From Polytrichum commune (taxonomy: Eukaryota; Streptophyta; Polytrichopsida; Polytrichales; Polytrichaceae): 64,000 nucleotides of DNA. The stretch is taken from the NCBI GenBank assembly GCA_950295325.1, contig OX485805.1, positions 21,811,501 through 21,875,500 of the forward strand. Direction: 5' to 3'. The translations under genes were made by a program, and so were the position numbers. Within the stretch, counting starts at the first letter, position 1, and the number at the start of each line of letters is the position of its first letter. The notes beneath the pieces were generated by a model, which was not told the DNA's origin, ran no database searches, and saw nothing but the letters and a program-made list of their open reading frames with translations. This document shows, piece after piece, positions 28,026-53,187 of this stretch.

Positions 28026-28048
28026 GGCCGAAACCCCACTAGGGGCAG
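28026..28048 (+). repeat. Left terminal inverted repeat of the giant Harbinger
   Basis: 23 bp, exact reverse complement of 47943-47965. It starts GGCC directly after the TAA target duplication. The inner part CCCCACTAGGGG is itself nearly palindromic. Confidence 0.92.
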
Positions 28049-28360
28049 CCCCATTAGCCGGCCGGGCTAGGCTTAATAAGGCTACAGGAGCTAGTTGAGT
28101 AGGGGGTTCGAAGGTTTGCTGCCCCACTTAGCGGCAGGGTGGAGGGGTAGTGCCACCGGCCGCGGTATCTTCGGAGGGAGGCTCTCTGCAGCTGCGGGGA
28201 AGCTGCTGCCTACCCTCTCCGACTGTAAGCAGGGTTCTCTGTGATTCCAGGGGGCTTTTGAAGCCGGCCAGCTTCTCTTCCCTCCTTGCTCTCTTACCAA
28301 GCACTCTCCCACCTTGCTCTCTCCCACCTTCCACACTTTCAATTTAGGGTTGCGATTAAA

Positions 28361-29767
28361 ATGGACAACGATGTCCATACGCTGACAGTTTTCCTAATCT
28401 TACAGCTCTCCTTGCTCACAACATTGGAGTGTATTGATAGAGACAGGGAGGCGATTTTACTATGGCACTGGCAACAAATAAGTGTCCTAACACTTGCACT
28501 GCATTGGTTTAAGTTGTGGAGTGGGAGACAATAATGACGTTTGTGGGCTTATGATCGGGGGTTGCACAGACCAGGATTCTTCGACCAAAATTTGTTGGGG
28601 TCATTCAATGCACGGGAATTCAAAGGGCGAATGCGTATGGACGTTTCGACTTTTGAGTATTTGTGTTGTATTCTCGCACCCGACTTGGAGAGACAAGACA
28701 CGAGATTGCATTTGGCCATTCCGATCCATGTGAAGGTTGCTGTATCAATTTCTAGATTGGCTACTGGTAATTCTATGAAGTGCATTGCCGATTTGTACAA
28801 GATTGGCCTATCTTCTAGTCAATTGGCAGTGTCCCAATTTTGTGGTGCCATTAAAAAACATTTGCTTAGAAAATTCATCAATTGGCCCTCTTCTTCCACT
28901 ATGGAAAGATATGCACGGAAATTCGAAGACCTGCACCAGATTTCCTACGTCGTGGGGGCAGTGGATGGCTTGCATATACCCATCATTGCACCCCAACTGC
29001 ATACTCCGGATTACTATAACCGCAAAGTATTCCATTCAATCATGTTGCAAGGTGTGGTGTCTACCAAATGTTTGTTTTGGGTTTTTGATATAGGTTGGGC
29101 GGGCTCTATGCATGATGCCAACTTGTGGGGTCGGACCGCCATTGGACAGTATTGTGAAGCTGGCAAGTTGTCACCTTACACTTTGGTTGGCGATGCCGCG
29201 TATCCATGTAGGCCCTGGATGTTGGCACCCTTCAAGGGCCACAAAGACGGCCTTACGCGAGAGGAATATTATTGGAACTTTGTACAAAGTTCTACCCGCA
29301 TGTGCGTCGAACGAGCATTCGGAATGCTAAAAGGTAGATGGCGAATTATTTTGAAGAGGGTGGATGTGCAATTGAAGAACATGCCCGACTTGGTTTCCAT
29401 ATGCTTAGTTTTACATAACATGTGCATTATTTTTAGAGACACGTTTTGGAAAAAAGAATGGATGCGAGAGGCCACGGACGAGGTGCACAACGGACTAGAA
29501 ATCCCACAAGTGTCGGGTTCGTCCATGCGCGAGCGAATGGCCGTGACGAACTTGACATTGCACAGCTTGGCCGGTATTGATGACGAATCACGAGAAACTC
29601 TAGAATACATCAAGCAAGAAGATGCTATGGCATTTGAAATTTCAATGAGCACCGCCGGAAAATCATTCAAAGAGTTGTCCGCAAGACGAAATGACATTGC
29701 AAGAAGTATTTGGATGGCAAAGACAAAGGCATCCATTGCTCAAACTTTCACTGATGGCGAGGAATAG
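28361..29767 (+). pseudogene. PIF/Harbinger transposase (HARBI1-like), two tandem stops near the N terminus
   Basis: The open frame from 28541 to the stop at 29767 encodes about 408 aa of a HARBI1-like DDE nuclease. Catalytic residues are visible in GAVDGLHIPI, in LVGDAAYPCRPWMLAPF and in the glutamate of CVERAFGMLKGRW. GWAGSMHDANLWG and the family-typical C terminus are also present. In the same frame an ATG at 28361 gives 57 more codons that run to TAA TGA at 28532-28537, directly before RLWAYDRGLHRPGF. These stops, both explicable as C-to-T changes, break the full-length frame. A shorter product could start at the ATG at 28630. In this superfamily the transposase cuts the terminal repeats, helped by the Myb-like partner encoded convergently next door. 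Confidence 0.85.
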
Positions 29768-29911
29768 GGACAATATGTTTTCAAAGCTTCTCTACTAGTT
29801 TTTGCATTGTTTGTTGCATGTTCATCAATAAAATCATTTTCATGTCATTACTTGCCTTCAAACTATCCATAGGATTATTGCTACTCTCCTCAATTCTACC
29901 AAGGCATCGCT

Positions 29912-32900
29912 CTAAAAAATGTCCTCCTTGCGTTTGGGCTCGGGAAATTTTGATGTGCTCTCACCGCTCTTGTGTTCCATGGTGTTCGCGAACGATGGGC
30001 TTCCGGACTTCGGACCATCTGGCATCGTTGCACTCGCGTGCGCATGTGAAACAACATGTGCCCTATCGGACATGAACTCATCTACGAGTTGGTACCAACG
30101 ACATTTCTCGGAGCGGTCGGATCCTGATCGCATATTCATTGCCTTGTCCTCCTTGTAATCGTTGTAGATGGAACTCCATTTCTTCCTACAAGCCTCGCTA
30201 TCCTTTGTGAAATCCGGACAGAGGGACACAAGTTTCGTGTGCAGCCGGGACCAATTGTCCACACCTGCACAACGTTACAAAAAACAAATCATAATTTCTA
30301 TACACACACTGCGAATGACTCCTTGACAAATGGCATTTGAATTCCAACAAAATTGCGAATGAGCATTAAACACTATATTCGTTAAATTGAGAATTTTTGG
30401 GCATTTTGAGACATTCATAGAAATAAGAACAAGGATAAATGGAACACATATTGGTGAAAGTTGTAAGATGCGAACACTTTGAAGCATGTGTTTAGACCAA
30501 GAACCCCATTAATAACTCATATTTGTGATGGTTTAGGGTGGGCAACCCAAACCTTAGACCAAATTGAAGGGAAACCTTAAAACATTCATATTATTGCACA
30601 CAAAATATTAGAGCTTGTATGAATATGGTTTAGGTAGGGCAATCCAAACCATAGATCTTATTGAAGGGTTAATATGTTAACCAATATAATATTGCATACA
30701 AAATATTCCAAACTCATATTTGTGATGGTTTAGGTAGGGCATTCCAAACCTTAGACCATATGGAAGGGGAAATCATGTGACACTTATATTATTGCAAATA
30801 AAACATACAAAGTATGACATGTAAAATGCATAGCATGCTAACACCACACATCCATTGGATAGTGCGACCCAAAATGTTCTTGCCTATGGCCCAAAACCCT
30901 ACGCCTACTATGGCCTATCTAGCCTTGGAGAGTGCCTCTTTTTCTTTTGCTTTTGCCTCTTTTGCCTCTTTTTCTTTTGCTGCGGCTTCTTTTGCTCGCA
31001 TTGCTAAAACATTCCTGAAAATCTCCGCCCCGCGACTATAGCCATTCTTGGGGTGACCGCCATCAATAACTAATTTTGGATTCCGTCGGCCGCCCGAATT
31101 ATACGACGAAGATTTCGAATACGATGAAGTGGACTGTCTTGTATTTCTGGTCATGGAGTAGAAACGCTCCAACTCGACGGACGTACTAGCCCGCATAGGT
31201 TTACGGGTGGGACCAACCTGCAACGCGTGAATGCAAGAACACACGTGTTAGTTTAGGGAGGAAGACCCAAATGTGTCACACGTTCATTTTTTAAGTGCCG
31301 GATGATTGTAATGCGCGATTAACCATGTTTGGGGGGGGGGGGGAGTTCACCTTGTCACCGGGGGCGTTCCCGTCGGAGTTGGCGAGGAGGGGCAATGCGT
31401 CCCGCAAAGGAATAGGAAGGGTGCCACTCTTCGTAGGCCGAGCGCCCATCCGCAGCCGCCGTTGAGGTGTACTACTGCCGCCGGGCCGAGAGGGGGATGT
31501 CCGGACGCATTTGCGATTTATGCCCTTGAGCGGCGACGGGGACGGAGATCGCCGGAAGATTTGCTTGGGTGGGGGGCTATCGACGACACCGGCGTCAATA
31601 GGCTCCTTGGAGTAGTCGATGGTGGACGCGGCATCGTAGACGGTCTCGTAGAAGAAGCTCCCCAAGTTTGATTCGCTGATGATCTCAATCGAGGGCTCCA
31701 AACGCTGATGGCAAAATTAAAACAAACAAAATCCAAGGGGAGGGGGGGAGGGGGAGCATGTGAAAATCGATATACAATTGAGGCATAATATATCACACAC
31801 AATGACACACCATGTAGTATCTCAAATGAGTTTATTATATTTCGCGTGAGCGTACAACTCTCTGTACATATAGTCCTTCGGATCCATGTATCTTTCGCCT
31901 ATCGGATTACAACTAAGGAACCGGGGCACGGGTAGTCCGCTCCCCACGAGCGTTTGAAGGTACTTAAGTAGGTCTAACAAAAAGCGGTCTCGGACCTTCT
32001 CGACCGTCCACGTCGGGCAAACTATGAAGTTCGAGGTCGGGTTCAAAATGTTCTTGGAAGCGTTGTCGTCCACCATCAACATGTTGTCACGGGTGGGGCG
32101 AACGTCGTAGGGACAGCCGACCATGTTGGGGCGCTGGTCCCATACGATTGGCTTCAAGACCTTAAGAAATTGATTTACTGCGGGGTTGTTGGGTTTTTTC
32201 ACAACCCTGCCGTCGGAGGTGTATAATGTTTTACAAGAATCCTGTCCTAAGACCAAGCACGGGGGTTGGAGCCCCTTGAAGATGAACTCCACGACCGCAT
32301 GGGTGTTCTCGGACTTCATGAAGCTCCAAATGATCACCCACCATTTGGATAGGGCGACCTGTAGGAAGCGCCGAAGCCACGGGCGGAGGTACACTAGCTT
32401 GCTTTTGATGTACGCGGGGGGTCCATCGTAGTTGGCGTCCTCGGGCTTGCAAAAAGGTACCGTGGGGACCCTCGGACAATGCACGCACTGGACAAGGACC
32501 CCGTTGAGGTCTAGCACCAGGAACCGGGTCTTGGGAGGCAAAGGTGGCGAGGGCAAAATCGGGGGGACCAGCACGCTGTCCTCCACACTCCTCGGGGAGG
32601 ATCGGTGGGGAGCTGCGACGCTATGCTCCGAACCCTGCGGCGACGAGCGAGAGAAGGCGGCGAGGACTATGTTATGCTATGTCCATCTCAAGCAGAACGG
32701 AAATTTTGTGCAAACACAAGAATAATTGGACCATTGGTGGCAACAAAAACATACAAGGGGAACAACATACATTGGGACACGGATGCAAACATATGGGCGC
32801 CAAAAATAATAATTTTATTTTTACAAATCTCTATGTACAATTTGATGGGGGGGTGAACCGCGGTGAACTAGCCATTCACACTATCCTAACTGTGCATCTA

Positions 32901-35900
32901 CAAAATTGCATGTAAGCGCCGCGCAATATCGAGCGTAGTCGAGTGCAGGGTGACGAAATGATCGCGAAGGGGGGCACTGAAGGGGCGCAGGTATTGGACA
33001 TATGGGCATCGGAAGGCCGGGGTGCAGTTCCTCCTAGCTAGGGGGACAAGACCACGCCAACAAGACAATGACCAAGGAGGTTTGGGTCGATCGACCCAAA
33101 CTGAGAGGTCTCAGTGTATTACCTCGCCCTGGTCATGTCTCGATGCCGTGGAGGGCTCCATCGGCTGCGCTGCCCCTCCTCTCTCTCCAGCGCCTTCTTC
33201 AACGACATCAGCAACCTTCTCCTGCAAAGGTCCAGGATCAGGCCCTTGTCCTAAACCAATCTCCGCATGTGCATCATGCATGGGTTCATCAACTTGGTTA
33301 GGAGTAGAGGTATCACCATGCCCTTGCAGGCCTTCAACATCTAACATGGTTGTGTCTTTTTCACACCCATGTTGGTCAAGGGACGACTGTCCTGCACCAA
33401 GGTTTGGGTCACCCGACCCAAACTGTCTTGCATCGGGGTAGTTCCCTTGTGGCACTACACACGGGGGGGTGTTTGGGTCATCCGACCCAAACATTCGGGG
33501 GTCGTCATGCTGGTGAGGGGGAGCTATCACTATGGGGGGCCGAAGTGGTGGAGGCCCCAAAGGAGAGGAGGCTCCAGAGACACGCCAGATGCTGGGATCG
33601 TCCACTTGCTGGACCGGCAGGGTTGTCTATTGTGTCGTGACGGAGGCTAATCTCGGCATAATGTCGTGCTGTCACGACACGTATCCGTCACGACATTATG
33701 CCGGATGTTGTCTTTATCCTGACAAACTTGAATTTTACCGAATTCTGTGTGTAATTACATTACCCCATTTCGGACACGTAGGATGTAAGATGTCCATGTG
33801 TGATGACATGTCAGCAAAGTAGAGGTAAAGTGGGGGGAAAATTACTAGTGCCCGTCCACCCCCCGTCCGCCGCCGTTCCCGACCCCGTCCGCCGCCATTC
33901 CCGACCCCGTCCGCCCCCGTTCCCAACCCCCGTCCGCAAAAATAAAATAAAAAATAAAAACCATGTTCCCCCCCCCCCCCGTCCGCGCCGTTCCCGCCCC
34001 CGTTCCCTCCCCCGTCTGCCCCGTTCCCCCCCGTCTGCCCCACCCTCGTCCCCCGTCCGCCCCACACCCTCCTTAGTCATATTTTACTACTTTGATTTTA
34101 ACAGAATGATAAACATAATGGCAAAATGGTTTACCTGGCGCTAAGCATATCCACGTCCACGTCGGCCTTTTCTGCCACATAGGACGCCACCTTGGCAAGA
34201 AGGTAAGTATTTTACCCACCCTACTAGCTTCCCCCTAGGTTGACCCTACGTGGACCCTATTGTGTCGTGACGGAGGGGTCCGTCACGACACGACACGTCA
34301 TGACGGCACGACACCGTCATGACGTCGGGATAGACAACCCTGTGGACCGGGGCGTAGGGGACATTGTGTGGCCGCATCATGTGTTGGAAACTGAATGACG
34401 CTTGCGGCACAGACTGTTGAGGAATGCTCTGGGCAGGGAAGCCGGCGGGTAAGTGCGGAAAGGCGCTCGAGGGAGCCACCACCAATCCTTGCGCCCACAT
34501 TCCTTGAATGACCTGCGATATCAGGTCGGCGCTGGATGGAGGTTGGGCCATCGCCCTTTGTCGCTCCTGCTCCAATAGGAGAGCCCTCAACTCTGCTACC
34601 TCGTTCCGCATTGAGGGTTCTTCTGCGGCAACCTTCTGCATGCGGACTCGCTGCTCTTCGTCCCTCCGCATCTTCTCGTTCGCCTCCTCCACAGTCAGGA
34701 CTTCTGGTTTCACCCTAACCATGCCTGCGAACGATGTCGGGGAGGGGGGATCCGATCTCAGCCGTTTGGCGAGATCCATATCGTCCTCGTCCTCGCTGCT
34801 TATGGCGATGGTCTCCTCCCTTGCGTAGTCGCTGTAGAGCTTCTTCCCTTTCAACTTCCTCCTCTCCCTGAACGTTGCTGTCGCATCCCTGGAGTACATG
34901 TCTCTAGCATCGTCCACCGTGAGGACGGGCACCAACTTGCTTTGCGGGGTTGCCACCCGCATAGCTTTCTTCCGTTGGGGGGCTTCTGATTCTTGCGTGT
35001 AACCCGTTGCTCCTTCTTCTACCTCCCCTTCCGCCTTATGGTCCTCTTGTTCCTCTTCCTCCTCCTCCTCCTCCACCTCGTCACCTGGCCCCCGAGATGA
35101 GGTACCCGGATGCAATCCTACAAGTGGTTCGGGTGCTCCAACTGGAGCACTCGTGGCAAATTCTGCAAGGTTGACACGCCTTGCCCTATCCATCGGGTTT
35201 TCACCCCCCTCTACAATCTCCTCCATGTAGCTCCCCGGGATCCAATCGAGGATGTCCATCTTCTTGGCTAGGACTTTTTGGGTTTTGTAAAATTGAAGAT
35301 CATTGTCCTCTATATAGGAGTACATCTTCAAACCCAACATCTGGACATTCAAAAAACAACTTTGGATCAGAGATATGCTCATTAAATTACACCAAGAACA
35401 AGAAAAAGAAACAATAAGAGAAAACCAATACAAAAGGTTTGGGTCGCTCGACCCAAACCATCACTGTGGCAAGTTTGGGTCGCTCGACCCAAACTATAAA
35501 CCAACTATTTTGAAGTTACTTACCATGCCAGAATAGATAGGTTTGGAACCCCCGAAGACGTTGAAAATAGAATCCCCTCTTCTTGTCAAGGCCCTCATTA
35601 TCCGTAAGTAGAACTCCATCCGCAGCTCGTCGGCAGTATAGTTCGCGTACTTGGCCTCGTCGTAGAGGCTCTTGCTCGCACCCAACCCCTCTGGTACTTG
35701 GAAGAGTTTTTCCATCCGGTTTATGGGGTGGTTGTCGACCTTCAGCAAGTTCGCTTTGTATACAAAGTACAAACACAATACGTCGACAAGCTTTGTTTTT
35801 TTGTCCTTCAACGTCGAGTAAGACCCCTCCGCCGGTGCAGCAATGTAATGAGATTTAGAGACAGCATAATCAGGTTGCAATTTCCTCGCAATCTCATATA

Positions 35901-38900
35901 CCTGCTCCGCCCTCCTATCCTCGACTATCCACAACCAAATGTCGACCTCCCTAAATTTGGGACTTGCATAGTCGACGAACTTTGATAGGAAGGGCTCATA
36001 GAAGGGGGTGCTCATAGTACCCTCAAACGAACTTCCAGGAATGTTCCTGAAGTCTATCATCCCAAAGGGGAATCGATCCCCAGCATTCGTCCTTATCGCC
36101 TTGCGAGCCTCAATGCCAGGCCACCCCTGGATTTTTAGAGGCTCTATGGTGACAAGGTTGAAATGCGCGTCCCCCTCAAAACTGACAATTTTCTTCTCCT
36201 TTATGAAATTCGAGAAGACACGCGCTGTGTGATCGGGAAGTGCCCGATTCTTCCCACCTTTCACCAGCTTGGACCGCAGGAAGTCTTCCCCCGCTTCCCT
36301 GATGAGAGCCGCCATAGATGCACTTGTGAACTTGTACTCTGCCTTGAATGCTTTCCAGTTTGCGTCGTGGACCTCGCCATCCACAAAAAGGTTCATTTCG
36401 GGGACTATCTTGTGCAACTCTTGGACGATGGTGTTCTTCTTCTTCTTATTCTCCGTCCATTCCTTCATGGTGTAGCATGAAGGAACGAATGATTTAGGCT
36501 TGGAGAAGACTATCTTTGGGTGCGTCCAACATCTCTTTGCCGTGGGCTCGACGTGCAGGATGTGCGTGGCCGCCTTCCCCATGTCTGTCTCCGAAAGCCC
36601 TTGGAGTGTTCGAAAGAATTCTCTCATCAAAGGTTTGAGCTGCTTGAAACGTGCGGTCAAGTTGAAAAGCAGGCCTGTGTCGGGATCCATCAGGTCCCCC
36701 GTCTCGTGCTTCTCGAACACGTTCTTCCACTTCGACCAGACATGGTCAGATGCTGTTATCAAATAAATTTCTCCTCGCAACTCGTTATATTTCTTTTGCT
36801 TGTGACTCGCATTGTCAATGGAAGAAAACTTATTGATCATTTGGTACTTGAAATACTGCACATAAACATAGAAATTTATGTTAGATATGTATATGTTAGT
36901 TGGACATTTGCTTAGATGAAAAGGCTTGAATATTAACTCTTACAAGGGTTTCGGTCGATCGACCCAAACTATGAAACAAAACAAGAGTTTGGGTTGGTCG
37001 ACCCAAACTATGAAACAAAACAAGCGTTTGGGTCGATCGACCCAAACCACACTCACCTCTCACTTTGGATTCTTGTCCTTCGCATTCTCCCTCTCCTTGG
37101 GAGGCCTGCCGTAGAACTCCCACACCTCGCGTGAGGCCATGATGTTGCGAATCCACGAAGCTTGGTATGCCCGTTTCGTGTTCCCCATATTGAAGTAGCG
37201 GGAGATGTCACTGAGTCTGGTTTCGTCATCTGACCACACCACTAAGGCCTTCCACACCTTCAATTTATCTTTTTGGTTATTGGGATCATCCCACTCGGCC
37301 ATGAGTTGGATTTTCTTCGATGCTTCCACGCTGTGTTGTCCGTCAATTAACCAAAAATCGCCTTTTTGAATTGATGGCCACATATCCGGAGTGGGCATTT
37401 TTTTGTGTCCCTGGGGCATGACTACAATAGTTTGCCTATCGTCTTTGAATTGCTCGCTCACTATCTGGGCGATTATCCAATCGACGTAGGCATCTTCCTT
37501 TGCCCGAACACACTTTTCTGGTGGGGCTAGGTGACACTGAGCAATATTGATGTCAAATTTGAAGTCCCTACCCATGAAGAAACAGTGAGAACACTTGGTC
37601 GTGAAATTGTTCACGATTCTTTGGATCTCAGACGCATCCACTTCTTGTCCGGGCTTTGGCATGCGCAGTTCTGGGGAAACTGGCTCGTCCGTCATAACCG
37701 ATGCCGATTCTCTTTGCCTCTTTGAAGGAGTTGTCTGACGGCTGTTTGATGGCGTGGGTGTCTCACTATCCGCCGGTGTTGCCGTAGGCGTGGTTCTTCT
37801 TGAGTCAGCCGGAACCGCCCGCGGCTTCCTCACTGTTTGAGGTCTGGACGAGCCCGCGCCTTCTTCTGTTGTGGCCTTCCTCCTCACCGGCTGTTGTGAT
37901 TTTGACTTGCTCTGTTGAGCCTTGTTTAATGCGTTGATTACTTGCTTAAGCTTTGTAAACCTGGATGCCACCTTTGTGTTTGAAATGCTTCCATCTATGA
38001 AGATAGACTCTAGTTTAATAACCTCTGGCTCAATGCAAGTTTCTTTTATGTACAGGGGGTCAAATGCCTCGGAGAATTGATGCATGAACATGTGCGCATT
38101 CTGCATTGCAGAATTCTCGAGTATGACGTCCACGTAGTCACCTAGAGCCTGTACTGACGCCACCTCCCACCCCGTCAAAGTTGCCCATGTGTTTTGATCC
38201 ACTGTCCCAACTTTCACCACAAAGAGGATCTTGAATTGAGATGCCTTCACCACTTGGAGAGACCATGCAATCACCAGCCCATCCTTAGGTACATAAGATT
38301 CATCTTCAGGTGTCTCGTGTTCCTGCCAAACCACATCTGGTGTGAGCATGAACCATCTCTCTCCAGGTCTTTTTTTGGGGGCCATCTGCAAGAAAACGAC
38401 AACGCTGTTAGTTTCGGTCGTTCGACCCAAACTATTATCTATGTATATTAGCATGTAGACGGGAATAACTGATGTCATATATGTTGAGGTCACGAATTGG
38501 CAGGTTTGGATAGATCGATTTGTCTTTTGGCAACTTTCATATTTTTTAGATATAAGTGTACATCCCAAAATAGATCTGTATAATAAATTTGTTTCATGAG
38601 ATTTTATTTTATTGGAACGATATGAATATGTTTTGCCATGGTTTGGGTCGCTCGACCCAAACCAACTTTTGTGTTTGGGTCGCTCGACCCAAACCAGCTG
38701 TTGTGTTTGGGTCGCTCAACCCAAACCAGCTGTTGTGTTTGGGTCGTTCGACCCAAACCAACTTTTGTGTTTGGGTCGCTCGACCCAAACCAGCTGTTGT
38801 GTTTGGGTCGCTCGACCCAAACCAGCTGTTGTGTTTGGGTCGTTCGACCCAAACCAACTTTTGTGTTTGGGTCGCTCGACCCAAACCAGCTGTTGTGTTT

Positions 38901-41900
38901 GGGTCGCTCGACCCAAACCAGCTTTTGGATTTGGGTCGCTCGACCCAAACCAGCTTTTGTGTTTGGGTCGCTCGACCCAAACCAGCTGTTGTGTTTGGGT
39001 CGCTCGACCCAAACCAGCTGTTGTGTTTGGGTCGTTCGACCCAAACCAGCTTTTGGGTTTGGGTCGGTCGACACAAACCAGCTGTTGTGTTTGGGTCGCT
39101 CGACCCAAACCAGCTGTTGGGTTTGGGTCGCTCGATCCAAACCAGTTTCCGTACACTGAAACAATAAAGATTAGTTGTGAATAATATGTATTCTCGACTA
39201 ATTCTTGTTGTTTCAATTTACGATCGTTAATGATTCATTGCTTATTATGAAATGATTGTTATAAAATGCTTATTAAATGATGCTTATTATATAATACATT
39301 TGATAGAATGCTTAGAATAGAATGCTTAGAATAAGTAAAAGAAAAACAAACTTATGCACCAAAAACGTTACCTGTTCTTGGAAGCTTTAGAAGAAGCTTT
39401 TCTTGCAAACTATAAGTATAATTCGAATCTGAGAAGCAGTTGTGCTCTAATCTCACAAATACTGGAAACTCTGTTGAACCTTAGAGAGCTCTACAGACGA
39501 AATGAACAAAACTTTCAATGTCGCAACACTCTGTGTGTAAAGGTAATAAGATTTGAAGACCCTAAACCCTCAACACTCCGAATTTCACAAACTCACAACC
39601 CTCAAAACTCTGAATCTAATCCTTCAAGCTATCACCAATCTGATAATAAACCCTCAGCACTCAACACTATAAAGCTCTTAAACCCTCAACACTCTGAATC
39701 TAATTCCTTCAAGCGTCAACAATGTAAATGCTAAACTTCAACACTCTAAACTCCACACTCTAAACTCCACACTCTAAACTTCACAACCTTCAACACTGTA
39801 AAGCTCACTCCTTCACGCTATGAACATTCTAAAGCTCCTAAACACTTCACACTCTAAATCCTTAAACCCTCCACACTCTGAAACGCACAAAGTATCAATA
39901 CTATTACGAGTAAACCAAGAAGAAGAATCACACAATAACCTATAGCATCTATACTCGCACGATAGAAGACCAGAATGTGGAATCTACATGCTCTACCAAG
40001 AGAATGGAGGGAGGAAGAGAATGGAGGGAACGCGTCACTTCGTGGAGGCGGCGCTTCAAAAGAGGCGGCGCTTCCAAGAGCAGCGCGGAGCTCACTTGCG
40101 GTGAAGAGGTAAAAAGACCCGGGTAGGGCAACCTTTCGGGTTTTGTTCCCCTCGGGAAAAGGCCCTAAACCCCGGCTTTAGGGCACCCCTTGAAACTCTA
40201 AACCCACGCAAATAGGTTCACGGGGCAGCTGTAATCCCTAAACCCTTACCACCCGACCTTTGGCGGCATTTAATTTCTTCCGAAACAGGTACATATCTTA
40301 AGGTTTTCACATAATTTTCAATTTTCCAAAGTATTTGAACTTATAGGCTCCTAAGTTGTTTACCGACTTTAGATTTTAAGTAACACAAATTATTTCACAT
40401 TCATCTTTGTCATCTGTGTTAATCATCTTTCCCAACTCCGGTTTTAATGTATTGAATTAGATTGTCCTTGATTGGGATTGCTTAAATTGAAATTAATCCA
40501 TTACGTGCTTTATAATTTGACATGTGTAGACATATGGAATCACAAATGCTCAAAGGCAATTACACGGTTTAATACTATTAGTATGGTACCATTTGTATGG
40601 TTTGATAATATGAATACGTATTTTTATTTATGTGATGCTTAATGCTGGAGGACAAGGCTGTAGCCTATCATAGATCACTTAAAAGTAGCTTTACACTAAT
40701 TCAATTATACAAGTTTATGTATTTTCAATTATTCTAATATGGAATCACGCTAATTGTATTCATACCTTATCATAGTTTTTTGTCAAAAAGAAAAAATCGG
40801 TTGTTTGATTTATATCATGGAACATGAATATATTTATATGGAAGTTGTCATTTAAAGTAAACAAGAGAAGCATAACGATTAAAATTGTAACCCCTGCACC
40901 CCCTTGGAGTTCAACATCATATGAAGCCATTGAAGCAATCACTTTGTTGGTCAATGGTCGTTACACATATACTAGGGTTTAGGGTTTAGGGTTTAGGGTT
41001 TTCAAATAAGAATAACAAATTGGGACTTGTTGCACCACAAGCCATAAATGATTGGCACATAGGTCAAATGATGAGGCCTCAGTGCATGCAAAATTATTTA
41101 CAAATGTATTTAGTTATGACAACATTTCAATTCAAGGACATGGAATATGGTTGTGTGGTCGTTTACAAGAAAATTCAATAAAGCAAACATACGATCTTGT
41201 GGTTACAATCAAGTCATCCTTAGTATGAGGATTCTAATAACAAGATTATAGTACATACAATCTTTATCATGTTAATATCTTATTTGAGATAATTTAACAC
41301 TATATACTTATGAAAGGTACGTGATATAATTTTGTGAATGTTATAATGACATACATTTCCAACTTTACATGCTTTGGTCACAAACACTACTAAAGATAAA
41401 ATGGATTTGAGGATAAGTTCAAACATCCTTGGAAGAGTGGAGTAGAAAGTGTTATGTGTGCTTGGAATTTCTTAAATAAAAACAATAAATTGGGACTTCT
41501 TGCACCACAAGCCATAAATGATTGGCACGTATGTCAAATGACGGGGCCTTAGTGCTTGTAAATTTAAATACAAATTTTTTTAGTCATGACCACATTTTAA
41601 TTGGAGGATGAGAAATACGGTTGTGTGAACGTTTAGGGTCTAAACTCACTACAGCGACCATGTGATATAGTGGTCATAATCAGGTCATCCTTAGTACGTG
41701 GAGACTAATAACAAGGTTATAGTACATACGATCTTTATCATGTGAATATGTTATTTGAAATATTTACACATTATATACTAATGAAAGGAACATTTGATTT
41801 TGTGAATGTTATGAGGACATACATTCCCAACTTTGCATGTTTTGCTCATAAACAATGCTAAGAATAAATTGTATTTGAGGATAGGTTCAAACATCCTTGG

Positions 41901-44900
41901 AAAAATGAACTAGAATGTGACATTTGTGCTTGAAATTTCATTAATGACTTCCACAAAGGTTAGTCATTGTCATAGTTGCATGCTTGAGAATGGAGTAACG
42001 TTGTGTGCACACTTTACAAATGACATATTGTGAGCTTTAAGAGTTTTTTCTCATTTGCACAATGTCATGTTTGTTTTTTGTTGTTAATATTATATATTTC
42101 CTCTTTTGATGGTCTCATTAGCTACTTTAACGGTTGTATTTAGTGACTTTTACCATATGGAGTTAAACGATGTTGCCACATTTTTGTCAAAATAATTGTT
42201 AAAATATATTATAATGTTTGAGTTCAAATAGAGTAATATCTTGCAACATAATTTATTATGTTCCTTAGATGGATCAAAGGGAAGTTGTTCGGAATTATTT
42301 TCTAAATCTTATATCAGATCTACATTTCCTTTAATGCACTTGTTAAAATACATGCCGCTACTACCTTTCCTACCAATGGTGCAAGTCATATTCACTTAAA
42401 AAAATAGAAAACGGATACAATATCTCAAATAGTGACAATACATATTTATTCTACATACAGAATATATGTGAACTCAGATAACTTGATGGTTGGGGCACCG
42501 AAGAGCCACCCTTAGTACACATTTTCTATTATAATCACGAGGTGGGAAAGTATGTCAGAAAGTTTGAATTACCGGCTAAAGGGGAATCAAGCGGGAAAGG
42601 TATCCAAGAGGAAGCAGGGCAGCGGATGCGGACAGTATAAAGGGCCAGCCTCCCCGAAAAGTCGGTCCTTTTTGCTCATCTCCCTCTCCAGAAATTGTAG
42701 CAAGCTCTCTCACTTGGAGCTCCACTACAAGGTTAGAGCACACTAGCATTCATGAGCAAGCAATCACAACATTCATCCATGATTTTTATTTCCCTACATA
42801 TACTATATTTAGATTTCACCATATTCACGCCGCATTATACGGCATATTTTACGGACAGTTTGGGTCGCCCGACCCAAACCTATCCCCACAGTGGCCAGGT
42901 AGTAGGGTTGACTCAGAGCCCATCCCCCCCCCACATAGTTTGGGTCGGTCGACCCAAACCCTTCTCCACAGTGGGGAAGTACTTGGGTTGACTCCGAGCC
43001 CATCCCCCCCTACATAGTTTGGGTCGTTCGACCCAAACCTTTCTCCACATTGGGCAGGTACTAGGATTACCTCAAACCCCATCCCCCTTAGATAGTTTGG
43101 GTCGGTCGACCCAAATCCTTTCCCACATATTGCAGGTACTAGGGTGGACTCTGAGCCCATGTCCCTCCTACAAGGTTTGGGTCGGTCGACCCAAACCCTT
43201 CCCCACAGTAGGCAAGTACTGGGGTTGACTGAGAGCCCATCCTCTCCTACATAGTTTGCATCGTTGTTGCCAATTGTTTCCAAGGGATAAATTGAAGGCC
43301 ATCCGCGAAGAAATGTGGCTTGGAGATTTCCGTCTAAGATCCACAAAAAAAACTTGATGTCCATAGGGTGATACATGTGAATGGGACGGGTCGCAAGGTA
43401 ATCACCATGGAAAGCATAAACGTGTGTTGTAAGGCATGGTACACCATTCACGGTGTGTCGAAGGCGGACTTCTATAGACAAGCTGCTTATGCCAAGGAAG
43501 GTCGCCGGTCCCGTCACCATGGGAACGTGGATTTAAAGAAACCTAGGGAAGCAACAAGACAAGCAACGGCCACTCTAGCAACCATCATTGTCCCCCTTGC
43601 CGATGCAATGCCGCACAAAACACGTACACTCACAACCGGTGAAAAGGTTGTGGAGAAAGTTCTTCCCACATGCACAAAATGGAAAGACATATTGTTGGAC
43701 GTGAATGCAGTTGGCGAGAAGATTGGGTTGGAGCCAATTTCATTGTCAAAATTGAGTGCAATAAAGAAAACAAGCTTTAGTGAATACATTACAAAAAGAC
43801 GAGGGGACAAATTTGCCCGGTGCTCTAATTGCGAAAAGTTGAAGCGTCTTCGGGATGCACACACGATGGGTACCGAGTCATATGCGGCACATCAATTGAA
43901 CTATTTCAAACACGTAAACATGCAAGAGGCACACCGTAATGATTACTACACAAATAGAGCTTTGTCCATCTCTAGGCCATTAGAGGTTCTCACGGTCATC
44001 CATGACAAAATGGATCATGCCAAAATAGCCTCTCCATGTTTTGCAAATCGAATCAAGGCCACGGATGGGTTTTTTAAGTTGCTTGTATCGGTTACAGGTG
44101 AAGTGTGAAACAATGTCATCACATACCCTAAATGTTGTGGTGTTTCATTACGTGATGTACTAGAGATCATGGATTAATTCAAAATGGTTTATTTATACAT
44201 AGATACTAATCACGTTGGGTTGGCATTGCAGGAATGATTGCACATGGACACGGTGATGTCAAGTTTGCTCATTACGCTCTTGATTTGTATCCAGCGGATT
44301 CAAACCACACGATAGGATCATTTGCAAGGCTTTTGCGTGATTTAGAGAAACCGCCAGCCTATTCTTCAGGATTATTATTTGAGAACACGGGTTCAACACC
44401 TCTATATGAAGCGGTGTTGGATGGAAAAGATGTATGCTTGCATTCGTTGCCAGAGCCACCCAGTGAACCCGTGATCGCCAAGAAGTTGCCCCCAACTTTA
44501 CGTGTCCAATTGGACAATTGTGCCAAGGACAATAAAAGTAGATATGTATTTGCATATTGGTCGTTGTTGGTTGCGAAAGGCATTTTCAAGGAGGTTTTTG
44601 TGTCCTTTCTATTGGTAGGCCACACGCACGATGATATTGATGCATCTTTTGGGCGATGGAGCATGAAGTTGCGGGAGGAGGATTTTCCTACAATCCCGTT
44701 ATTGATGAAATCGTACATGGATTTGGAGAACATTCCCGTCATCCCCCATATGATCGAGGAGGTGCCAGACTTCAAGGCATTTATAGAACCTTATATTCGA
44801 AGTGGAGCTCACCGATTGATCGGGCATACGAAGGCACAACAATTCTGCTTCTATATGCGTGACGATGGTGTCCCGGTCATGCAATACAAGTTGTTGTGCA

Positions 44901-47447
44901 CGACACAAGACTGGAGCCCGCCGGAGGGTCTTCTTGTGTGGCGCGTGGATGCGGATGGAAAGACCATGTTACCGGATGGGGAGCCTAGGCCTTGCAAGCC
45001 AATAGCCATGAAGAATTTGGAGGATATTTTGAAAGGTATATCAGGCTTCATACAATATTGGGAGAGTTTGAAAATAGCGGATGTTGGCGGATCATGTTGG
45101 CATCGTTATGGGAGTTGGATACATTATTGGACACGTGTTCGTGCCGCCTTGGCAGACCTCCACCAAGATAGCCCTCATACTTTGAGGCATGGATTTTGGC
45201 CACAAACACGAGTCGATGTACAAGCTTCGGAGCCTAGTCTTTTGGGAAATGGAGAGGTTCGAGAGGAGTTTGATGTGGACGACCATTACGTGGGGCCTGC
45301 TAGTAGTCGTCCCCCACCATCTTTCCGCATTGCAGTGGATTGTCATGAAGGTTATATGCTCATTTTGCGTCCTGGAGACGAGACATATGCAAAGCCAGTG
45401 TGGGTGGCAAGAGCTTTGTCCAAACCCAATTTTGTAACTTCCAGCCCTCATTTTCGACAGATACAAGTGGAGTACTATCGACCGACAACACGGAATGAAG
45501 ATGTTGTTCGGCATTATACAGGCTGGGATACAAACCCTAACTTTCGGTGGAAGGTGGATTCTGAGCACGGTCCATCTTGGGTAGATACAGATTCCATATT
45601 CATAGCATGGAAACCACGGAAAAACCATAGTGGATCAGTGTCCATCCCTCAAAAGTACATAACTTTTGCAAAAGACAACCTTACTCGGATTGCACAAGAA
45701 GCAACCCACGTTGAATGAGAAGTTGGTAGGATTGTGTTAGCATGATTATAGTTTAATACGTAATTATAGCAATATAAATTACACATATGTGTGTTCTTCA
45801 AAATTGGGGCAGAGTTTGGGTAGAACTTACGAATACTATATTGTTTGGAGTTGGATGAATATCCATTTACTATATTTCAAAGAAAATTGAAGTTCATCTT
45901 ATTATTATGTTTGGGACTATATTGTCGAATGAAGAAATATGCATTTATTACATGCACTTTGTATGTTGCAATGTCTATATTCTATTGAGCATGCTAATAA
46001 TAGAAATCATTTTATATGTTTTTTGGGTGGAACTTGTTTGGAGTGCTCTAGCCAATGTGTTTTTGTTGATGAAGTTGGTGTCGAGTGCTCTACCATATGT
46101 GCTTATGTCCGCACATCATAGATTTGGGATATTAGAACATATAATATAATTGAGATTGTTGACAATATAGTTTCGGGCCTCTTCAAGTTCTTTGATCCAT
46201 ATATTAATTTGAGACTAGAGAAAGTCTCAATTTAACGAATATAGTGTTATTAATAATATTGAACGATAAATTATCCTAAATCCATACTTCTGTGGAATAG
46301 AGGCAGAGCAAATTACAAACATAAACATGCTTATATTTAATTTGAAAATATATTTTGTGTGTGGTAACAGGGAATAATATGCGAGAGAGAAAACTTAACG
46401 ACAGCAGGTAAAAAATCGATGTGCAGCAGACTGCAGATTCCCGACTACAGAGGCATTGCAGTCTGCTGTATAAAAAAACAGAGTATATTTACGAATTCTG
46501 AGGGCCCTGGAATACAGTCTGCAGACAGGTAATATTCTTTAAAGGCTGCTGCTGCCGCCTTGCACAGTCTGCAGGCAGTTTACAGGTAGTTTTATTATAT
46601 ACCAGCCTATTTGTGAAAAACAGATTGCAGCTTTGTGTCGAATTACAGAAAATAACCAATTCCAATGGCTAAAAAATGAATTTCAGTTGCAGGCAGGAGA
46701 TACACAAAAAAAATAAAATTGGTTTCAACAATTTTGCATACTATCACTATATTCGTTAATTAGATACTTTCTCTTCTTTGCAAGTAATATATGGACAACA
46801 CCAACATGGTGCAATGTTTGGGGTTGTCCTACCTAAACCATGTTGGCTTGCATTTCCTAAATGGGTTCTCGATATGAACACCCGCTTCAAATAACTCTTG
46901 ATCGACCACACTTATAATGAAAAGCACAAAAGAATAAAAAAAACAAGAAAAAAAATTCAAGAGGCACACCTTGCTTGAATGCGTTGAATGTGTTTTGCAT
47001 CTCCCCCCGAAGCGAAATGAGTTGAATGACCCAGTGGTCCTTCCAATGGTGAGCATGCTTCAAGAGCTCCACATCCTCTTTGGCATCGTCCAGTTCCACA
47101 ATTTCCGGTTTCCTTCGGGGGGCTCTTTTTTTCTTGATGGACTTGGAGTGATCAATGACTGGGTCATGGGGGCCTCGTTTTGGTGGTTCTTCAGTGAGAT
47201 CAATTGTGGCACTAGGAGTGCCTTGGGCGGGAGCATTGAAGCCATACCCTGGAATTGGAGGCATGTAGGAATGGGCATATACAAATGGCAATTGATTCCC
47301 CACCCCCGGAAAGCCATGAAAGAATGGTGCGGGAGCAATGGGAGGACGTGGCCCTGAATTTGGAGAGCATGGGATAGGGGGGATTCCACCCGTCACAACA
47401 CTCGCATTGCCACCACCCGCTTCCCGCAAATTACCTTGTGACTCCAT
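29912..47447 (-). CDS. Harbinger Myb/SANT-like partner protein, two exons separated by a 16.7-kb intron
   Basis: Exon 1 is 47447-46970 and exon 2 is 30264-29912. Together they are 831 bp, 276 aa. The donor (G then GTGTGC) and acceptor (TTGTGCAG) agree in phase and join KHAHHWKDHWVIQLISLRGE...FNAFKQG to VDNWSRLHTKLVSLCPDF. The joined domain is the Myb/SANT-like (trihelix-type) domain typical of the second Harbinger protein, continuing with SEACRKKWSSIYNDYKEDKA and YQLVDEFMSDRAHV. In known Harbingers this protein binds subterminal DNA and helps bring the transposase into the nucleus. The N-terminal 110 residues are Pro/Gly-rich with basic KSIKKKRAPRRK. No internal stop is seen. All cargo genes lie in its intron. 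Confidence 0.82.
30530..30790. repeat. Tandem repeat, about 98 bp x 3, each with a relaxed palindrome
   Basis: Imperfect palindromes of type GGTTTAGG(T/G)...(A/T)(C/T)CCAAACC lie at 30530-30553, 30627-30650 and 30727-30750. Each is followed by TAGA(C/T)C, GAAGGG and a TATTATTGCA.A.AAA phrase. The arms resemble the strict palindrome TTTGGGTCG/CGACCCAAA of the cargo region, with mismatches. Confidence 0.7.
30915..31704 (-). CDS. Hypothetical cargo protein, two visible exons, Pro/Ser- then Lys/Ala/Glu-rich
   Basis: Exon A is 31704-31351 (118 codons; acceptor GCCATCAG, donor AAG then GTGAAC). Exon B is 31217-30915 (acceptor GCGTTGCAG; ends in a stop). Phases agree. The product runs through a Ser/Pro/Arg-rich stretch (FRRSPSPSPLKGINRK, STPQRRLRMG) into GRRNPKLVIDGGHPKNGYS and a charged, probably coiled-coil tail (AMRAKEAAAKEKEAKEAKAK). 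No family is recognised. No start codon lies in exon A, so an upstream exon is missing from this model. It sits in the Myb intron, on the same strand. Confidence 0.45.
31341..31351. other. Splice donor next to a poly-G/C run
   Basis: The donor of the hypothetical gene's exon A (AAG then GTGAACTCC) is followed on the minus strand by a run of C at about 31331-31343. Such runs are prone to length change and assembly error. Confidence 0.4.
31822..32634 (-). CDS. FCP1/NIF-type HAD phosphatase-like exon (cargo)
   Basis: An open exon of 271 codons preceded by a consensus acceptor (TCGCCGCAG). The frame ends in a stop at 31822. The HAD core is recognisable: RFLVLDLNGVL (motif I), LRPWLRRFLQVALSKWWVIIWSFM (motif II region), and PTRDNMLMVDDNASKNILNPTSN (motif IV, acidic pair). 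FCP/SCP enzymes remove phosphate from proteins such as the RNA polymerase II tail. Here the second aspartate of motif I is Asn (DLNG), a form also seen in plant FCP-like HAD proteins, so catalysis is uncertain. No in-frame ATG is present, so at least one 5' exon is missing or the copy is truncated. It is probably a captured host gene piece. Confidence 0.6.
   Translation of the reverse strand, partial: GSEHSVAAPHRSSPRSVEDSVLVPPILPSPPLPPKTRFLVLDLNGVLVQCVHCPRVPTVPFCKPEDANYDGPPAYIKSKLVYLRPWLRRFLQVALSKWWVIIWSFMKSENTHAVVEFIFKGLQPPCLVLGQDSCKTLYTSDGRVVKKPNNPAVNQFLKVLKPIVWDQRPNMVGCPYDVRPTRDNMLMVDDNASKNILNPTSNFIVCPTWTVEKVRDRFLLDLLKYLQTLVGSGLPVPRFLSCNPIGERYMDPKDYMYRELYAHAKYNKLI
33081..33491. repeat. Three palindromes around the 3' end of the ParB/methyltransferase-like gene
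   Basis: 33081-33100 (perfect, centre AT), 33403-33422 (centre ACCC) and 33472-33491 (centre ATCC). The latter two lie inside the coding frame and are read as FGSGDPN and FGSDDPN. The first is just past the stop codon. Confidence 0.9.
33618..34342. mobile_element. hAT-type MITE, 725 bp, inserted in exon 3 of the ParB/methyltransferase-like gene
   Basis: The terminal inverted repeats are CAGGGTTGTCTAT. The element is flanked by a perfect 8-bp duplication TGGACCGG (33610-33617 and 34343-34350), as expected for hAT. The subterminal zones are rich in TGTCGTGACGG and its complement. The middle has C-rich CCCCCGTCCGCC minisatellite sequence on the plus strand. It has no coding capacity. Removing it with one target copy makes the exon 3 frame continuous (APVQQVDDPSIW). 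Confidence 0.9.
35438..35493. repeat. Two palindromes in intron 2 of the ParB/methyltransferase-like gene
   Basis: Strict copies at 35438-35457 and 35474-35493, both with centre CT, within 90 bases of the 5' splice site (35523). Confidence 0.93.
36949..37046. repeat. Three palindromes in intron 1 of the ParB/methyltransferase-like gene
   Basis: Copies at 36949-36968, 36988-37007 and 37027-37046, spaced 39 bases apart with an ATGAAACAAAACAAG linker. The last begins 5 bases inside the intron from the donor. Two have one or two mismatches. Confidence 0.93.
38412..38431. repeat. Single palindrome 27 bases upstream of coding exon 1
   Basis: TTTCGGTCG-TT-CGACCCAAA, one mismatch, just before the acceptor of the first coding exon (38386) of the minus-strand gene. 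Confidence 0.85.
38641..39152. repeat. Palindrome array: 16 perfect-length 32-bp units
   Basis: Sixteen units of exactly 32 bp (512 bp, no length change). Each is a 20-bp palindrome TTTGGGTCG-NN-CGACCCAAA plus a 12-base linker of type CCAGCTGTTGTG or CCAACTTTTGTG. Units 4, 7 and 13 have centre TT, and linker variants also recur every third unit, giving a 96-bp higher-order period. It lies about 0.26 kb upstream of the ParB-like gene's first coding exon. All six frames are open through it because 96 is a multiple of 3; these frames are artefacts. Confidence 0.97.
39153..40260. promoter_or_regulatory. Probable 5' region of the minus-strand cargo gene, with minisatellite
   Basis: Between 39555 and 39890 an imperfect repeat of AACACTCTRAA / CCCTCAACACTC occurs many times. 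At 39950-40250 the sequence turns GC-rich (CTTCGTGGAGGCGGCGCTTC type), in contrast with the AT-rich surroundings, as a promoter or 5' leader would. Placement as the promoter of the ParB/methyltransferase-like gene is inference. Confidence 0.35.
40974..41001 (+). repeat. Interstitial telomere-type repeat (TTTAGGG)4
   Basis: Four exact 7-bp units of the plant telomere repeat, directly followed by the first unit of a 470-bp tandem duplication. Confidence 0.93.
41003..41945. repeat. 470-bp direct duplication
   Basis: Two diverged copies (about 41003-41470 and 41473-41945). Shared landmarks are TGGGACTT(G/C)TTGCACC, AAGCCATAAATGATTGGCAC, AGTACATAC(A/G)ATCTTTATCATG and GGTTCAAACATCCTTGGAA. No coding signal is present. 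Confidence 0.85.
41946..42540. other. AT-rich spacer inside the giant element
   Basis: Nothing recognisable is seen between the 470-bp duplication and the promoter-like region of the DUF7869 gene. Confidence 0.4.
42636..42642 (+). promoter_or_regulatory. TATA box candidate for the DUF7869 cargo gene
   Basis: TATAAAG in a GC-richer context (GGACAGTATAAAGGGCCAGC), about 0.6 kb upstream of the first coding exon. A good splice donor (CAAG then GTTAGAG) at 42732 would open a 5' leader intron ending at 43254, which contains the five-unit palindrome array. Confidence 0.5.
42859..43254. repeat. Palindrome array: five units of 78-80 bp ending exactly at a splice acceptor
   Basis: Palindromes start at 42859, 42939, 43018, 43096 and 43176. 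Each is followed by a TCCCCACAGTGGGCAAGTACT-like linker and GAGCCCATCC...ACATAG. The last unit ends with CTACATAG at 43254, which is also the 3' splice site of the DUF7869 gene. The exon then starts TTTGCATCGTT, itself similar to the start of a palindrome (TTTGGGTCGTT). Confidence 0.9.
43255..45718 (+). pseudogene. DUF7869-type protein, probable RNase-H-fold transposase/integrase (one frameshift)
   Basis: Exon 43255-44097, a GT-AG intron, then 44232-45718; about 775 codons. One extra A in an A8 run at about 43345-43352 shifts the frame between REEMWLGDFRLRSTKK and LDVHRVIHVNG. It may be real or a homopolymer error. Conserved-looking blocks are VITMESINVCCKAWYTIHGVS, a CSNC pair, VIHDKMDHAK, GMIAHGHGDVKFAHY, then VQLDNCAKDNKSRY and FLLVGHTHDDIDASFGRWS. 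The last two are the hallmark of DUF7869 proteins of plants. Acidic residues in HDKMDH, LDNC and HTHDDID could form a DDE/D triad, which is inference. It is divergent from the ParB-like gene. Confidence 0.7.
45719..46815. other. AT-rich spacer with CTGCAG-rich patch
   Basis: At 46420-46640 the word CAGTCTGCAG or CAGTCTGC recurs about five times within 200 bp. No gene is supported. Confidence 0.45.
46816..46838. repeat. Relaxed palindrome near the 5' splice site of the Myb intron
   Basis: GTTTGGGGTTGTCCTACCTAAAC pairs imperfectly with itself and resembles the relaxed copies at 30530-30750. It lies about 130 bases into the Myb gene's intron. Confidence 0.55.
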
Positions 47448-47942
47448 GGAACCCTAAACCCAAGTTACAAGAAAATGAAAAGTTGATCAAAAGAGAAGCA
47501 AAACTTTTTAAAAAAAAAAAAAAAAATTAAAACCAAAAAAAAGAGGAAAACACAAACATGGTGATAGGTTTGAAAGCTCACCTTGGGAGGGCGGCAGAGG
47601 GTCATTAAAATCGTTGTAGAAGAGCTCACACTGTGAAGGCCGGAGCTGATTGCACAGACAAAGCCTACTCTGTTTCCCGCAGCAGCTGGTTTCTCAGAGC
47701 TTCCTTCCTCTGCGAGGTCCTCCCCGGGTGTCGAAGATGACCGGGACCTGTCCACGTGGCGGTGCAAGTAGGGGGACCAGTAGGGCACCGGCGCCGGGGG
47801 GGGTCAGAGAGCCAGGCACCCTCCCCTGGCACTTGACCTTCACCCAACGGCCCTGCCAGGTAACCCTCCCGCCGTTTTTCCTGCCCCTTGTGGGGCACTG
47901 GCACCCCTGCCGCAGCCAATTAGGTTGCACGGTTTGCTTTGC

Positions 47943-47965
47943 CTGCCCCTAGTGGGGTTTCGGCC
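47943..47965 (-). repeat. Right terminal inverted repeat of the giant Harbinger
   Basis: 23 bp, exact reverse complement of 28026-28048, followed by the target copy TAA at 47966-47968. Confidence 0.92.
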
Positions 47966-52900: not shown

Positions 52901-53187
52901 CTACAAGCACACACGGTATGAGCAGAGATTCTAAAGCGATTGAGTGGCTTTCGATTCCTGCTGCTGATGTCTTTCGTGTATCTAAATCGCCTAGCTGCAT
53001 TCAATGTGAATGTTGCTTTACGCCACGGCCTTATCCATTCTTCATCTATATGTTTCCAATCATATTGCTTAAATGGATCCTTCGTCCACTCCTCTGCGAA
53101 TCCCTTGGTACATTCTGTGGTTTGCCTTGACCACCATTTGTTCGTCTCCTGGCTTCCACCATGTGGATACATCCTAGAGGTCGTCAT
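49903..53187 (-). CDS. ACA: Autoinhibited Ca2+-ATPase (P-type IIB), copy 2
   Basis: An intact, intronless 1094-aa frame, the inverted paralogue of 7219-10533. It has the same architecture: N-terminal basic segment PWRKATFTLNAARRFRYTKD, M4 PEGLPLAV, phosphorylation site DKTGTLT (D470), KGAAE, GDGTNDAPAL and ten membrane segments. The N terminus differs (MTTSRMYPHGG and a shorter linker), and the C-terminal tail after SSHRQS is unrelated to copy 1. The middle and C-terminal pump core is nearly identical to copy 1 in long blocks, separated by diverged patches, a mosaic typical of gene conversion. Both copies look functional. Confidence 0.95.
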   Translation of the reverse strand: MTTSRMYPHGGSQETNKWWSRQTTECTKGFAEEWTKDPFKQYDWKHIDEEWIRPWRKATFTLNAARRFRYTKDISSRNRKPLNRFRISAHTVCACRRFRFRKVTPTDAIVVDSSILVQLLQDRRLEDLQKLGGVEGLANSLQTDLENGLDENEEQMQKRRDSYGANTYPKKTTQGFWSFVWDACKDTTLIILMVCAVISLATGMWTEGVQKGWYEGTSIGVAVVMVIAVTSMSDYKQGLNFRNLNKEKENIQLLVLRAGQRQMVSIFDLVVGDIVPLSIGGQVPADGILVEGHSLSIDESTMTGESLPVKKDKSKPFLLSGCKVQDGQGAMLVTGVGLNTEWGQVMASISEDNGDETPLQVRLNGAATLIGKAGLLVAVVVLIILIIRYFAITFKNASASNKTAMKVIKELVHIFSIAVTIVVVAVPEGLPLAVTLTLAYSMRKMMADKSLVRKLAACETMGSATTICSDKTGTLTTNKMTVIKAWLGGEMRDEDNAVLLNTLPPTLLQKLAQSICLNSNGTVSPPKADAEPVVTGSPTEAAVLSWGIKLGMNFKQLRHENEILHVETFNSEKKRAGVVYKTVEGDVELHWKGAAEIILELCTWWIDSTGERRPMTEGKREELKTVIEGMAAQTLRCIAFAYRSIDGAAIPSGEEARSEWKVPDSELTLMAVAGIKDPCRPGVREAVEKCQRAGVKVRMVTGDNIFTAKAIAAECGILTEGGLVVEGRDFRTWDDARLDKDLDNLEVMARSSPLDKLKLVKALKERRGDVVAVTGDGTNDAPALKEADIGLSMGIAGTEVAKESSDIIILDDNFTSVVKVVRWGRSVYANIQKFIQFQLTVNVVALTINFVAAVSSGQVPLTAVQLLWVNLIMDTLGALALATEAPTDDLMERAPVGRTEPLITNIMWRNIFGQAVYQIVVLLTLTYAGIGLLGLQGTRADQDLMRNTIIFNAFVFCQLFNEVNARRPQELNVFEGIHKNYLFMGIIGATVFFQVIIVTFLNQFADTTKLPLKWWGLCIAIGFVALPLAALVKCIPVTKKPILEISCFPSKSCFRLKRRRKNYESADEFSSHRQSRCNTKAQETATPAANITIH

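Follow-up and report, generated by a model that had tools for sequence, protein, structure and literature searches.

Lineage-specific palindromes in a DUF7869 transposon of Polytrichum commune: candidate sites for an element-encoded DNA-binding protein

We analysed a stretch of 64,000 nucleotides of the Polytrichum commune genome (assembly GCA_950295325.1, contig OX485805.1, positions 21,811,501 to 21,875,500, hereafter the window), in which a family of short palindromes lies within a DNA transposon that is itself nested in another. The palindrome-bearing element (30369..46248, plus strand) has an exact 24-bp terminal inverted repeat (TIR, AACACTATATTCGTTAAATTGAGA) and the target site duplication (TSD) ATTA (30365-30368 and 46249-46252). 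Its homology with three other genomic copies (c1-c3) breaks off sharply at 30369 and at about 46249, and the two copies for which both ends were fetched are flanked by the TSDs ACTT/ACTT and AAGG/AAGG. The outer element (28026..47965, plus strand) is a PIF/Harbinger, with a 23-bp TIR (GGCCGAAACCCCACTAGGGGCAG) exact at both ends, the TSD TAA, a DDE_Tnp_4 transposase gene (28538-29767, plus strand; Pfam E-value 1.1e-31) and a Myb/SANT-like gene (29912-30274, minus strand; Myb_DNA-bind_4, E-value 1.7e-4, below Pfam's cut-off). An earlier interpretation made from the letters alone (the sequence-only reading) had taken this Harbinger as the host of the palindromes. We rejected this assignment, because the palindromes belong to a separate element with its own TIR (starting with AACACTATATTCG), its own TSDs (ATTA, ACTT and AAGG) and another transposase; no Harbinger transposase was found in the fetched parts of c1-c3. 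A 57-bp inverted repeat (46196-46252 and 46739-46795) adjoins the right end of the nested element. Its outer arm contains a diverged copy of the element's TIR (20/24), which suggests an older nested relative.

The nested transposon encodes a NIF (NLI-interacting-factor-like) phosphatase, a weakly ParB-like protein and a DUF7869 protein. The NIF gene (31825..32676, minus strand; Pfam NIF, E-value 5.1e-13) is without palindromes of the type found elsewhere in the element, hereafter type A. The ParB-like gene is fast-evolving and has three exons, all on the minus strand. Exon 1 (37063..38385, 441 aa) is called ParB-like for its DGQHS motif and has 47 homologs among public proteins. Exon 2 (35533..36861, 443 aa), with 52 such homologs, belongs to no known family; the idea, formed by eye, that it encodes a methyltransferase was unsupported by Pfam (32 members) or PDB profile searches. 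Exon 3 (33111..35349) contains an insert resembling a miniature inverted-repeat transposable element (about 33622-34343), with inverted ends starting with GGTTGTCTAT. The DUF7869 gene (43338..45718, plus strand; Pfam DUF7869, E-value 9.2e-42) has a shorter 5' end than its counterparts in c1 and in the sister lineage B described below, and its product is presumed to be the transposase of the element.

A search of the window for TTTGGGTCGNNCGACCCAAA with at most three mismatches gave 31 matches, 30 of which lie in 33081-43195 (22 with no mismatch, eight with one); the last is a poor match, with three mismatches, at 30854. The mean and the largest number of matches in 100 dinucleotide-preserving shuffles were both 0. 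The family of about 30 near-perfect palindromes that the sequence-only reading had described in this interval is therefore real, and so is the variability of its two central bases. Since the outer G/C is hardly ever lost, we took the conserved unit as 22 bp. The type A consensus is thus GTTTGGGTCG-NN-CGACCCAAAC, with 30 copies between 33080 and 43196. Across the loci examined we collected 169 instances, of which 61 were imperfect; the changes affect one arm at a time, with a symmetric change in two of the 61.

The palindromes concentrate around two of the genes. Sixteen copies form an array with a period of 32 bp in the 5' leader of the ParB-like gene (38641..39145, minus strand; 15.8 copies according to Tandem Repeats Finder, TRF), and five form another, with a period of about 80 bp, upstream of the DUF7869 gene (42858..43196, plus strand; TRF, 42857-43258, period 80, 5.1 copies). 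The sequence-only reading had mentioned two arrays; TRF reported a short third one besides these (36942-37047, period 39, 2.7 copies). The 16-copy array is probably inside an intron of the 5' untranslated region, judging from the splice-like signals around it, an acceptor-like CAG directly before the ATG and a donor-like ACAG/GTAACG upstream. Nearer to the ATG there is a single palindrome (38411..38432, minus strand), which reads GTTTGGGTCGAACGACCGAAAC along the gene and has one non-consensus arm. Intron 1 (36948..37047, minus strand) holds three palindromes, the first of which stands beside the donor, 15 bp past the end of the open frame of exon 1, and intron 2 (35437..35494, minus strand) holds two. 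Two of the 30 palindromes are within an inferred exon (exon 3, at 33402 and 33471), and one more lies just past the stop (33080). In all, 28 of the 30 are noncoding, while 49% of the nested element is coding (7,717 of 15,880 bases). Palindromes occupy the same place upstream of DUF7869 in c1, c2 and lineage B. Degenerate relatives of the GTTTAGGGTGGGCAACCCAAAC type occur three times at 30531-30749 (plus strand), less than 400 bp from the left end of the element, and again at 31251 and at 46817, the last just outside its right end. Outside both transposons, a hairpin at 13763-13831 has a core (13782-13812) that is a 31-bp palindrome with the 10-bp type A arms GTTTGGGTCG/CGACCCAAAC and a longer centre.

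Searching the genome with the exon 1 protein gave 1,133 first-look ParB-like candidates. The 95 that were scored were all 85-100% identical, and 75 of them lacked internal stops. Copies on different chromosomes share identical scores (e.g., six at 896.2 bits), which looks like a sign of recent spread. We sampled ten copies at roughly even steps and fetched their intron 1 and the 500 bp upstream; all ten carried palindromes in both places (1-5 in intron 1, 5-8 upstream). Together with the window and c1-c3 they make up 14 lineage A copies. In every one of these the first palindrome of intron 1 directly follows the donor, 14-15 bp past the end of the exon 1 open frame, and the non-consensus arm of the ATG-proximal site (CGACCGAAAC) is kept (14/14, representing seven distinct sequences).

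The arms have been kept across considerable divergence, with dN (nonsynonymous divergence) of 0.08-0.10 and dS (synonymous divergence) saturated or higher than 2.5 in distant copies. Between the window and c1-c3, exon 1 has a dN of 0.085-0.091 and a dS above 4 or undefined; for exon 2, window against c1, dN is 0.082 and dS 2.6. At the first site of intron 1, the mean identity over 21 flank-distinct pairs is 97% in the arms, 71% in the centre and 49% in the next 22 bp. In the five pairs with saturated dS, the arms are still 95-100% identical, whereas ungapped identity over the next 22 bp falls to 27-50%. These data support selection on paired half-sites, as the sequence-only reading had proposed: the arms are kept though intron flanks and synonymous sites are scrambled, changes are one-armed, and the palindrome is swapped as a whole between lineages (see below). 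The DUF7869 module (43254-45718) has a different history. It is 97.6% identical at the DNA level over 1,778 bp between the window and c1, and its dS between the window and c2 is 0.28. Since it is far closer than the ParB-like gene in some of the same pairs, modules were exchanged between copies.

A sister lineage of the element, B, was found at two places (loci L023+L029 and L034+L035). Its palindrome is TTTACGGACG-NN-CGTCCGTAAA, at positions homologous to those of type A: upstream of DUF7869, in the leader of the ParB-like gene, in intron 1, in intron 2 (three copies) and at the end of exon 3 (two degenerate copies). The copy at L034+L035 has 24 B sites scoring at least 15/20, of which 15 score at least 18, but lacks A sites that reach 15; conversely, there is no B site at 15/20 or more in the window. 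In L023, one degenerate site reaches 15 with either motif. The leader sites recur in a third B copy, and the ATG-proximal site is non-consensus in all three B copies too. Hence, the motif was swapped between the two lineages. The accompanying proteins differ to unequal extents: A and B share 65-70% identity in DUF7869 and only 25-37% in the ParB-like exons.

More palindromes with changes in both arms seem to exist beyond A and B. The public homologs of exons 1 and 2 frequently continue beyond the donor, and for this reason the intron palindrome appears in them as a peptide. Such read-through tails, some read by hand, point to the further variants GTTTGGGCCG, GTTTCGGGCG, GTTTCGGTCG, TTTACGAACG and TTTATGAACG. 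The scan for them matched 43 times in tails and 66 times in exon bodies, with 13 matches unassigned; those in exon bodies were other words, except in P0079, where GTTTGGGCCG stands ahead of the exon. Labels were assigned by hand for P0092, P0094, P0095 and P0096 (B, B2 or B3) and for P0019 and P0020 (A3), and loosely for P0070 and P0075 (A3). On an IQ-TREE phylogeny of 32 exon 2 proteins, 19 of them labelled, the motif labels need six changes, which is the minimum; shuffled labels need 10.4 on average, and none of 200 shuffles was as low.

We scanned the genome (407.8 Mb, 64 contigs) for both palindromes. Type A, with at most two mismatches, occurs in 13,499 places (one for the reversed-pattern control), and motif B in 5,172 (0 for its control). 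Locations were analysed for 89 distinct sites on one contig, listed among the 13,499 matches. Among these, 64 are in three further copies of the nested transposon (loci L012-L019, with c1 at L012), and 25 fall in, or next to, another repeat family that is unrelated to the transposon (L009-L011, L020, L021); two of these loci touch it only at the edge of one of its pieces. The open reading frames (ORFs) of this second family (742 and 451 aa) have no Pfam match; SWIM-like cysteines can be seen by eye. Its palindrome arrays are likewise placed between ORFs, and one homologous inter-ORF gap holds 7, 5 and 1 copies in L009, L020 and L021. The proposed restriction of the palindromes to one element is thus not borne out, both because of this family and because of the genome-wide count. 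An even spread through the genome, independent of the element, was not seen in the 89 listed sites either, and in the copies examined the palindromes do go with ParB-like/DUF7869 loci. Six arbitrary 10-kb stretches had neither motif at 16/20 or more, which says little because, at the genome-wide density, this much sequence should hold no more than about two A sites; a seventh stretch turned out to be the lineage B element of L023. We discarded a viral or prokaryotic origin on a scan confined to viral contigs, in which the exact motif had 0 matches and exon 2 had no relatives.

A Ca-ATPase-like gene that lacks introns is present in two inverted copies (7371-10499 and 49952-53077, 94% identical), which flank the nested elements. 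From recognition of their translations, we take the window's ORFs to include a plant-type Ca-ATPase and a cinnamate-4-hydroxylase-like P450, as suits a land plant host.

How can these observations be accounted for? Conserved arms around a free centre, errors confined to one arm, and a swap in step with a fast-evolving protein fit a DNA-binding element protein acting as a dimer. We infer that one subunit would contact each 10-bp arm, leaving the two central bases unread, and that each lineage would pair its own palindrome with its own diverged protein. The best candidate for the binder is the protein encoded by the multi-exon ParB-like gene. Its sites would flag the two main genes, that for the ParB-like protein and that for the DUF7869 transposase, in their leaders and introns. 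Binding there would counter host silencing of these genes, or activate them, in every copy of the lineage, much as VANC acts on VANDAL elements. Taken as a whole, from marking to anti-silencing or activation, we hold this reading to be somewhat more probable than its negation. The non-consensus ATG-proximal site may be a weaker operator for autoregulation.

Several points weigh against it. The evidence for ParB is a weak match to the PHROG 1033 ParB-like profile, obtained for 8 of 27 exon 1 members (best E-value 0.0075); Pfam ParB did not match any of these 27 proteins at loose E-values, and the PDB gave nothing below an E-value of 0.2 for the ParB-like protein. The NIF protein, too, has diverged between the lineages (40% identical between A and B), so that the binder may be another protein of the element. 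The variants A2-A4, B2 and B3 were read in translated tails instead of DNA, and B2 is not one clade on the exon 2 tree. The degree of CpG depletion, taken as a proxy for earlier methylation, is only slightly different in the element of the window (0.79) and in its surroundings (0.58-0.70), and we dropped it as too small a difference to use. Finally, a role at the RNA level retains some weight, given that leaders and introns hold almost all of the sites and that their RNA hairpins are stable.

This last point is the core of the main rival explanation. Here each palindrome would fold into a hairpin of the pre-mRNA close to a splice site or branch point, and the hairpin, perhaps together with an RNA-binding protein encoded by the element, would govern how the element's transcripts are spliced or how stable they are. 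The predicted hairpins are indeed stable (-12.7 to -15.4 kcal/mol, z about -4, for three examples), the first palindrome of intron 1 directly follows the donor in all 14 copies, the ATG-proximal one lies in the last 80 nt before the acceptor-like CAG and adjoins CTAAC in most copies, and the 16-copy array is probably intronic. Yet, the changes are one-armed and do not compensate each other (symmetric in only 2 of 61 imperfect instances), and the ATG-proximal variant has a fixed G-G mismatch in its would-be stem in 14/14 copies. Two palindromes are coding and one is past the stop. Rfam gave 0 families at the gathering threshold, so a known RNA family was rejected as well. We regard this explanation as unlikely, albeit the strongest of the alternatives.

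The sites might otherwise be bound by the transposase, or by an accessory protein, for transposition itself, as are the subterminal repeats of CACTA elements by TnpA. The degenerate relatives within 400 bp of the left end would suit such a role, as would two protein-coding modules that travel together. However, the 30 good copies are internal, at least 2.7 kb away from both ends of the nested element, and lineages A and B have different palindromes but a conserved transposase. This makes the explanation distinctly improbable. The least credible alternative is the passive spread of a functionless palindrome by tandem duplication, gene conversion and hitch-hiking, for which the fluid array copy number (7/5/1 at one homologous place in the second repeat family) and the spacers common to copies inside one array might speak, but which leaves unexplained that arms are kept and flanks lost across saturated dS, that the same positions hold a different palindrome in the sister lineage, and that a fixed one-armed variant is retained next to the ATG.

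Among known systems, CACTA/EnSpm elements combine an element protein, TnpA, with the repeated short subterminal sites to which it binds. The TIR of our element also contains CACTA (AACACTA...). It differs from these elements in its internal sites, in a TIR that starts with AACACTA, in a TSD of 4 bp (3 bp in CACTA) and in its DUF7869 transposase; Transposase_21 had no match among the element proteins scanned against Pfam. The ParB/parS system resembles ours in having multiple palindromic sites linked to the protein's own gene, here a weakly ParB-like one, whereas our sites are both scattered and arrayed inside a eukaryotic transposon and the protein has no Pfam ParB match. We found no paper on DUF7869, and no title on this subject among the matches listed for TTTGGGTCG.

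The closest functional parallel is provided by the VANDAL transposons of Arabidopsis, and the statement of the sequence-only reading that no named feature type explains the palindromes is therefore too strong. VANC proteins exert sequence-specific anti-silencing on VANDAL elements (PMC5735166, PMC10398659), and a 2026 review describes VANC for Vandal Mutator-like elements (MULEs) (PMC13317346). The VANC21 motifs are family-specific, form tandem repeats, and are found in introns of VANC and VANB and upstream of VANA; a VANC-target motif is shared by an unrelated transposable element, AT9TSD1 (PMC5735166). The likeness extends to several features of our element: a short motif, specific to the transposon and repeated in tandem, that lies both in introns and upstream of genes of the element itself; a fast-evolving accessory gene beside a conserved transposase, with different motifs in related families (here A and B); and the sharing of the motif with an unrelated element, AT9TSD1 there and the second repeat family here. 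The differences are as clear. Our motif is a 22-bp palindrome, whereas the VANC motif is a non-palindromic word of nine bases (PMC5735166), and our element has a 24-bp TIR with a 4-bp TSD. The Pfam scan of its proteins gave DUF7869 and NIF and no MULE (VANA-type) transposase, and none of 27 exon 1 and 32 exon 2 proteins matched the VANC protein domains DUF1985/DUF287 at loose E-values. Since no MULE or VANC domains turned up in the element's proteins, we propose a likeness of working, not membership in the VANC family.

It is about an even bet that a DUF7869 transposon independently evolved a palindrome-based system of self-recognition and anti-silencing, with at least two codes (about 13,500 and 5,200 sites), probably more, side by side in a single plant genome, one of them picked up by an unrelated repeat family. 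The VANC proteins of Mu-like elements are an established case of sequence-specific anti-silencing by transposons. A second such system, palindromic and unrelated to VANC, would mean that transposons repeatedly evolve private address tags against host silencing. It would also offer two orthogonal protein-site pairs within one genome, directly amenable to experiment, as would be the sharing of such tags by other element proteins or by unrelated repeats, comparable to that of AT9TSD1 and VANC6.

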